This document shows, piece by piece, positions 28,545 to 28,971 of a stretch of DNA of 64,000 nucleotides. Made by a program: the position numbers and the translations under genes. A model generated the notes under the pieces. The model was not told the origin of the DNA. It did not search any database and worked only from the letters and a program-made list of their open reading frames with translations. The stretch is from positions 1,612,001 through 1,676,000 of the forward strand of contig NC_015416.1 of NCBI RefSeq assembly GCF_000204415.1, written 5' to 3'. The stretch's first letter is position 1. Each line of letters opens with the position of its first letter. The stretch is from Methanothrix soehngenii GP6 (GTDB lineage: Archaea; Halobacteriota; Methanosarcinia; Methanotrichales; Methanotrichaceae).

Positions 28545-28694
28545 CTAAGCGGTCTTGTTCTCCTTGGACTTCATCCGCAGGCCTTCATAGCCGCATTTGC
28601 GGCAGCGTGTAGCTTTTACTGGGTTTCGCGCATTGCAGCGCATGCATATCTTGAGGTTCAAGATTCTGTTTTCTGCTTCTGGAAATCTAGCCAT
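28545..28694 (-). CDS. rpl40e: 50S ribosomal protein L40e
   Basis: 49 aa, too short for routine ORF cutoffs. It begins [20 protein letters not shown] and contains the zinc ribbon CMRCNARN...CRKCGY with basic tail, exactly the archaeal L40e. It ends just before the GGGP synthase start, indicating co-transcription. Confidence 0.93.
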
Positions 28695-28749: not shown

Positions 28750-28900
28750 CGCCGGGGTTGGGATTTTCCTGGCGGGTCTCTTGCGCCCCGTCATTTTGAA
28801 CCCAAGTGTCCCTGGAAGGGACAACAGGTCTCGAGCCTGCCGCGTTTGAACTTCCGCCGGCCTTCGGCCGCCCGGAATTTGTCCGCTCTGCCACCCCGGC
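28750..28900 (-). tRNA. tRNA-Ser (CGA) with two non-canonical introns
   Basis: On the minus strand the acceptor GCCGGGG (28900 down) pairs with CCCCGGC at the 3' end (28757-28751), discriminator G. The anticodon stem GCAGG/CCTGT encloses loop CTCGAGA (anticodon CGA). A long variable arm TGTCCC-TTCCA-GGGACA marks a Ser tRNA. Two insertions interrupt the cloverleaf: 33 nt in the D-loop (28846-28878) and 31 nt in the T-loop (28764-28794). Each forms a bulge-helix-bulge: GGAC/GTTC flanked by AAA and AAA; TTCA/GGAA flanked by AAA and AAT. Splicing yields an 87-nt tRNA with T-loop TTCAAAT. Confidence 0.85.
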
Positions 28901-28971
28901 ACAGGTTAGACACCCTCTGGCCCATGCTTTATATCTGTTGCTCCCCTGAATGCCTCCCACAGGAGTATGTT

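Follow-up and report, generated by a model that had tools for sequence, protein, structure and literature searches.

The stretch analysed here, 64,000 nucleotides (nt) of Methanothrix soehngenii GP6 (contig NC_015416.1, positions 1,612,001 to 1,676,000 of the forward strand; below, the window), carries on its minus strand a gene for tRNA-Ser(CGA) whose D-loop and T-loop are each interrupted by an insert. Comparison with related genomes supports the reading that these are two non-canonical introns of the bulge-helix-bulge (BHB) type in a single-copy gene, and that their removal, with each cut made after the second bulge base, leaves an 87-nt tRNA. A preliminary description of the window, made from the sequence alone, had placed a 33-nt insert in the D-loop and one of 31 nt in the T-loop, and its coordinates proved right to the base. 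The parts of the gene are listed below; the 40 two-intron precursors and the 47 sequences with a D-loop insert only (D-only) to which the list refers are described later.

28750..28900, minus strand: tRNA-Ser(CGA) gene with two introns; precursor 151 nt, mature form 87 nt including G73
28879..28900, minus strand: exon 1, with the acceptor 5' strand, the 5' side of the D-stem and GCGGACAA of the D-loop
28881..28884, minus strand: GGAC, the part of the D-loop motif's central 4-bp helix that lies in the exon; paired in 40/40 two-intron and 47/47 D-only sequences
28846..28878, minus strand: predicted intron 1, D-loop, 33 nt; boundaries from a cut after the second bulge base
28848..28851, minus strand: GTTC, which forms the D-loop central helix from the intron side; relatives have GTCC or GTCT
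28795..28845, minus strand: exon 2, with the 3' side of the D-stem, anticodon arm, variable arm, 5' side of the T-stem and TTCAAA
28831..28833, minus strand: anticodon CGA, from ARAGORN on the spliced sequence
28797..28800, minus strand: TTCA, the part of the T-loop motif's central helix that lies in the exon; three pairs with GGAA here, four with TGAA in 8/40
28764..28794, minus strand: predicted intron 2, T-loop, 31 nt, between positions 59 and 60; boundaries from a cut after the second bulge base
28766..28769, minus strand: GGAA, which forms the T-loop central helix from the intron side, from the comparison of 40 precursors
28750..28763, minus strand: exon 3, with the end of the T-loop, the 3' side of the T-stem, the acceptor 3' strand and G73; CCA is not encoded

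Read from 28900 to 28750, the order on the minus strand is GCCGGGGTGGCAGAGCGGACAA, intron 1, ACGCGGCAGGCTCGAGACCTGTTGTCCCTTCCAGGGACACTTGGGTTCAAA, intron 2 and TCCCAACCCCGGCG, with exons of 22, 51 and 14 nt that add up to 87 nt including G73. When ARAGORN was run on constructs, tRNA-Ser(CGA) was called only once both introns had been taken out; no tRNA was found in the precursor, and none in the form with intron 1 alone removed. In scans of the whole window the gene at 28900-28750 was missed by ARAGORN and also by the Rfam model RF00005, permissive threshold included. The observation of a tRNA-Ser(CGA) gene with two inserts is real and is hereby confirmed.

We searched 50 Methanotrichaceae genomes at the DNA level and parsed the fetched loci, which yielded 40 distinct precursors. 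The gene was matched in 44 of the 50 genomes and in 10 of 11 genera, and all 40 precursors carry both inserts at the same positions. No intron-free Ser(CGA) was detected in any searched Methanotrichaceae genome, including the six without a match, all of which are assemblies of 100 or more contigs. Compared pairwise, the precursors share on average 96.9% identity over their exons, with 50.3% for the D insert and 59.8% for the T insert; the inserts range from 31 to 47 nt (D) and from 30 to 44 nt (T). The two-intron pair is a family trait of Methanotrichaceae and not one methanogen's peculiarity. The expectation that such introns would be unusual in a methanogen has to be narrowed: the pair belongs to a whole family, the D-loop intron without its partner is widespread in the class Methanosarcinia, and the T-loop intron was seen only in Methanotrichaceae. 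At the end of contig 36 of one genome (locus L109, genome G022) lies a diverged second copy of the gene with CTA replacing the CGA anticodon, which may be a low-coverage error or a decaying copy.

Across the 40 precursors, the D-loop central helix is formed by GGAC with GTTC, GTCC or GTCT (GTYY) and all four pairs are present in every one. The flanking bulges read AAT, TAA, AAA or AAG on the 5' side and ATA or AAA on the 3' side. The T-loop central helix, TTCR/KGAA, has three or four of its four pairs in 40/40, occurring as TTCA/GGAA with three pairs (31 precursors), TTCA/TGAA with four (8) and TTCG/GGAA (1); its bulges, all of 3 nt, are AAA, AAT or AAG on the 5' side and AAT on the 3' side. 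Inner stems average 6.05 bp (D) and 5.4 bp (T), against 0.71 and 0.63 bp in shuffled introns, and none of 1000 shuffles reached these values. In the D inner stem, 96% of cells are paired and four of five pairs have changed on both sides (17 of 1000 shuffles equalled this double-sided count and none the pairing level); in the T inner stem, 88% of cells are paired and five of six pairs show double-sided changes (0/1000 shuffles). These shuffle numbers are not probabilities, because the covariation counts take related sequences as independent. Slid-register controls, which pair 16-61% (D) and 25-51% (T), point in the same direction as the shuffles.

The T-loop insert presents a central helix, 3-nt bulges on both strands and a predicted cut after the second bulge base, and it corresponds to the strict hBHBh' form, in that the T-stem abuts the motif and the inner stem covaries. 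The T-arm BHB had been described with TTCA/GGAA, one A-G mismatch, AAA and AAT bulges and an inner stem, and the comparison upholds it. For the D arm a BHB with a GGAC/GTTC helix of 4 bp and AAA bulges on both strands had been proposed. The helix and the bulges stand, as the insert has the 4-bp central helix, a 3-nt intron-side bulge and a covarying inner helix; the directly adjacent outer exon helix of the full hBHBh' form is absent. Here G15 and C16 face C23 and G24 without pairing, and an internal loop stands between the helix and the D-stem pairs 10-25 and 11-24. Since the bases next to GGAC do not pair in this register with those that follow the 3' bulge, the D-loop motif is a relaxed one, HBh'-like in the terms of PMC6379350, unless the precursor adopts the alternative pairing with a 4-nt bulge that is discussed below.

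The cut sites were fixed by comparing the products of alternative registers. If the D-loop is cut after the second bulge base, GGAC[AT]AACGC results in 40/40 precursors, whereas cuts after base 1 or 3 give mixed products. The products of the second register are GGACAAACGC in 27 precursors and GGACTAACGC in 13; GGACTAACGC is identical to the intron-free Ser(CGA) of two other families of the class, and GGACAAACGC is one base off. In the T-loop, a cut after base 2 yields TTC[AG]AATCCC (TTCRAATCCC) in 40/40, a form seen in intron-free outgroups; a cut after base 1 gives the same product and a cut after base 3 mostly does not. Because D cuts 1 and 3 give mixed products and T cut 3 mostly fails, position 2 is the sole register fitting both introns. 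The proposed cut after the second bulge base, with its 87-nt product, thus restores the outgroup form in both loops. An order of splicing had also been suggested, on the ground that the T-arm fold depends on exon pairing. This we reject: the T-stem is by itself enough to close the T-loop motif, which it adjoins, so the sequence demands no splicing order.

The surroundings of the gene add two features.

28927..28935, minus strand: GATATAAAG, a TATA-like element 27-35 nt upstream of G1
28545..28694, minus strand: gene for ribosomal protein L40e (Pfam PF01020), downstream of the tRNA gene; context only

A TATA-like element stands upstream of 40/40 two-intron genes, mostly within GCAACAGATATAAA. 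The L40e start lies at most 130 nt downstream of the tRNA gene in 33 of 40 loci, and co-transcription of the two is possible. Downstream on the same strand, L40e is accompanied by a PcrB-family gene, and on the other side of the tRNA gene a malic enzyme gene runs in the opposite direction.

The genome comprises 3,026,645 bases in two contigs, of which the chromosome accounts for 3,008,626. A DNA search with the mature sequence as query revealed no second Ser(CGA) copy in it, so that no other intact gene speaks against the one described here. The copy count rests on this search, which we preferred because the RF00005 genome listing is incomplete and misses an intact Val tRNA. The other serine tRNAs have the anticodons GCT (L034), GGA (L042) and TGA (L043), assigned for the latter two by reading the sequences, and GGA and TGA each have an anticodon-loop intron. 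When the genome's other tRNAs were searched for the same T-loop intron, the pattern matched the Ser(CGA) gene and two unrelated places, and a reversed control pattern also gave two matches. No match to the gene was found in a plasmid collection.

The preliminary description had also pointed to the type of the splicing endonuclease subunit. PF01974 matches the genome twice, and the two matches share a single open frame (350 aa from ATG), which contains two stretches each of PF01974 and PF02778, that is, two N-terminal and two catalytic domains; no further PF01974 gene, and hence no separate second-subunit gene, was found in the genome. This is the alpha'2 (homodimer-type) fused two-domain layout. 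At the loop site the Methanothrix EndA has the length of the Archaeoglobus fulgidus enzyme, its best solved relative, and is gapped against 3P1Y, whose extra residues there we take to be a grafted crenarchaeal loop. No insertion corresponding to the crenarchaea-specific loop near the active site was seen in this comparison of sequences, which leaves room for a loop of another kind. A class-wide search detected PF01974 in 223 of 238 genomes, nearly always as two matches per genome; the frames, where listed, are mostly 330-460 aa, with room for both domains, and D-intron genera across the class have the same fused two-domain gene.

For the D-loop intron in a setting of conserved exons, 84,980 named species genomes were scanned. 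The scan returned 86 stretches, among them Methanothrix, Methanolobus, Methanococcoides, Methanohalophilus, Methanosalsum, Methanohalobium, ANME-2 and GoM-Arc1 archaea. In the D-intron members outside Methanotrichaceae that were read through, the T-loop is uninterrupted; 47 D-only sequences entered the comparison. Ser(CGA) is intron-free in two families of the class (f5, f6); in another (f2; L176, L177) it has no D-loop intron and about 15 extra nt at the anticodon-loop position. On the simplest reading, the D-loop intron would be the older and wider one, lost or never gained in some families, and the T-loop intron would have been added in the ancestor of Methanotrichaceae; this order of gains is inferred. 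Three contigs of metagenome-assembled genomes labelled 'Euryarchaeota' or 'Methanomicrobia' (L215, L217, L241) carry a Ser(CGA) whose D-loop intron is short and whose variable arm holds an extra insert of about 30 nt. This insert folds into a stem and is possibly an independent second two-intron combination.

We consider it very probable that all this reflects a single functional gene, processed as follows. A TATA-type promoter would drive a precursor with two introns, and an alpha'2 EndA homodimer would cut each of them two bases 3' of the central helix: the T-loop intron in a near-strict bulge-helix-bulge closed by the T-stem, and the D-loop intron, probably the older of the two, in a relaxed motif that combines the 4-bp helix with a bulge and stem on the intron side and an internal loop on the exon side. 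The exons would then be joined, presumably by the RtcB ligase, into the 87-nt tRNA. Several points weigh against this account. As a single sequence the precursor folds no more stably than shuffles (z -0.11), and the central helices of both motifs are near neutral in computed energy; because of this z value the support for the introns is comparative, not thermodynamic, and a thermodynamic argument was dropped. At the fourth position of the T-loop central helix, 32/40 precursors have a purine facing G, a mismatch (A.G here). The UCG codon is readable by Ser(UGA) through wobble, so the tRNA-Ser(CGA) gene need not be essential. Finally, alpha4 and alpha2 euryarchaeal enzymes are described as cutting canonical motifs only (PMC4033280), and relaxed-motif introns as being removed efficiently by (alpha-beta)2 and epsilon2 enzymes only (PMC6379350).

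The wobble reading opens the way to a disrupted pseudogene, in which the inserts stay and Ser(UGA), whose gene is in the genome, serves UCG; that standard tRNA finders miss the gene and that tRNA-CGA is wholly missing from some archaea (PMC6000648) would agree with this. We hold it to be highly improbable, as the exons are nearly unchanged across the family while the inserts drift, the insert stems covary, the cut sites give back the outgroup form and the promoter-like element is present in 40/40. A second explanation keeps both introns but has them removed with the help of an unrecognised partner subunit or RNA-binding factor that holds the relaxed D motif, instead of by alpha'2 EndA alone. 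It draws on the published rule linking relaxed-motif cutting to CSL or ASL loops (PMC6379350, PMC12397907), an insertion that the Methanothrix EndA lacks. Against such a partner stand the lack of a second PF01974 gene in the genome, the same fused gene in D-intron genera across the class, and the finding that the A. fulgidus alpha'2 enzyme, whose specificity is described as narrow, can yet act on a full-length pre-tRNA and cut its bulge-helix-loop (BHL) intron at 37/38 (PMC6379350); we think it unlikely. A third explanation, still doubtful but the least so, differs from our preferred account in the D-loop step only: the D-loop intron would be shown to the enzyme as a near-strict motif through G15-C25 and C16-G24 beside the 4-bp helix, with a 4-nt 3' bulge, and relaxed specificity would not be needed. 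Its computed energy is about equal to that of the cloverleaf (-14.5 vs -14.9 kcal/mol), and in the minimum free energy fold of the arm the same bases form a GCG/CGC pairing. Against it, the alternative breaks the D-stem and leaves a 4-nt bulge, the computed energies do not discriminate, and T23 in ANME-2 sequences restores the D-stem pair A12-U23.

Returning to the account with alpha'2 EndA and a relaxed D motif, the published enzyme/intron rule fits the family poorly, because its fused EndA carries no relaxed-motif loop. We lean, by a small margin over even chances, towards the view that an alpha'2 homodimer lacking both the crenarchaeal and the ARMAN loop natively removes the relaxed D-loop intron in much of Methanosarcinia and the T-loop intron in Methanotrichaceae, and that the accepted rule, by which non-canonical tRNA introns go with loop-bearing (alpha-beta)2 or epsilon2 enzymes, fails for the class. 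Non-canonical and multiple tRNA introns are usually regarded as a Thermoproteales trait enabled by a special enzyme type; the same architecture appears here fixed in a methanogen family, and half of it across much of a class, with a plain homodimer-type enzyme. This enzyme mismatch is the interesting part, and culturable species, together with intron-free families and one-intron and two-intron relatives, offer a clean test of the rule of enzyme/intron co-evolution.

The multi-intron tRNAs of Thermoproteales (Sugahara et al. 2008, cited in PMC4033280) likewise have several BHB-type introns outside 37/38 that are cut two bases into the bulges. Their enzyme is an (alpha-beta)2 heterotetramer with the crenarchaeal loop, in contrast to the alpha'2 homodimer lacking it that the Methanothrix gene predicts; here the two-intron state, stable across the family, is known for a single tRNA. 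Methanothermobacter and Methanopyrus are also euryarchaeal methanogens with non-canonical or multiple tRNA introns (PMC4033280, PMC3218864), and they are the only multi-intron Euryarchaeota listed in PMC4033280; Methanopyrus has an (alpha-beta)2 enzyme, unlike the alpha'2 here. The passages of PMC3218864 speak of 'three thermophilic euryarchaeal methanogens' with non-canonical introns and do not name them. The third could be Methanosaeta thermophila, whose genome was used in PMC2237900, in which case part of what we describe would already be annotated. Korarchaeum cryptofilum, the sole alpha2 archaeon named with non-canonical introns (PMC4033280), resembles the present case in combining a homodimer-type (alpha2) EndA with such introns and differs in an insertion that is not seen in the Methanothrix EndA. 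The nearest solved relative, A. fulgidus alpha'2 EndA (PDB 1R0V, 2GJW), has the same fused two-domain layout. A literature search, not exhaustive, found no paper describing these Ser(CGA) introns.

A gene of the standard set escapes tools such as ARAGORN and the Rfam tRNA model, so that any report of a missing tRNA-Ser(CGA) from genomes like these should be checked. In nine genomes of one genus (g38, G200-G230, probably Methanosarcina), whose genomes are mostly 3-5.8 Mb, a query with a related precursor found no recognisable Ser(CGA). Among the tRNA matches of the M. soehngenii genome there is no Thr(CGT) gene, which may be absent or hidden by introns. The locus L175 (G000:C1:1609021-1609105) is a probable tRNA-Trp(CCA) with a long anticodon-loop intron that falls under the Rfam cut-off. 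Two further loci, L172 and L174, are truncated 5' portions, tRNA-Leu-like and tRNA-Ser(GCT)-like, and are perhaps integration remnants of tRNA genes.
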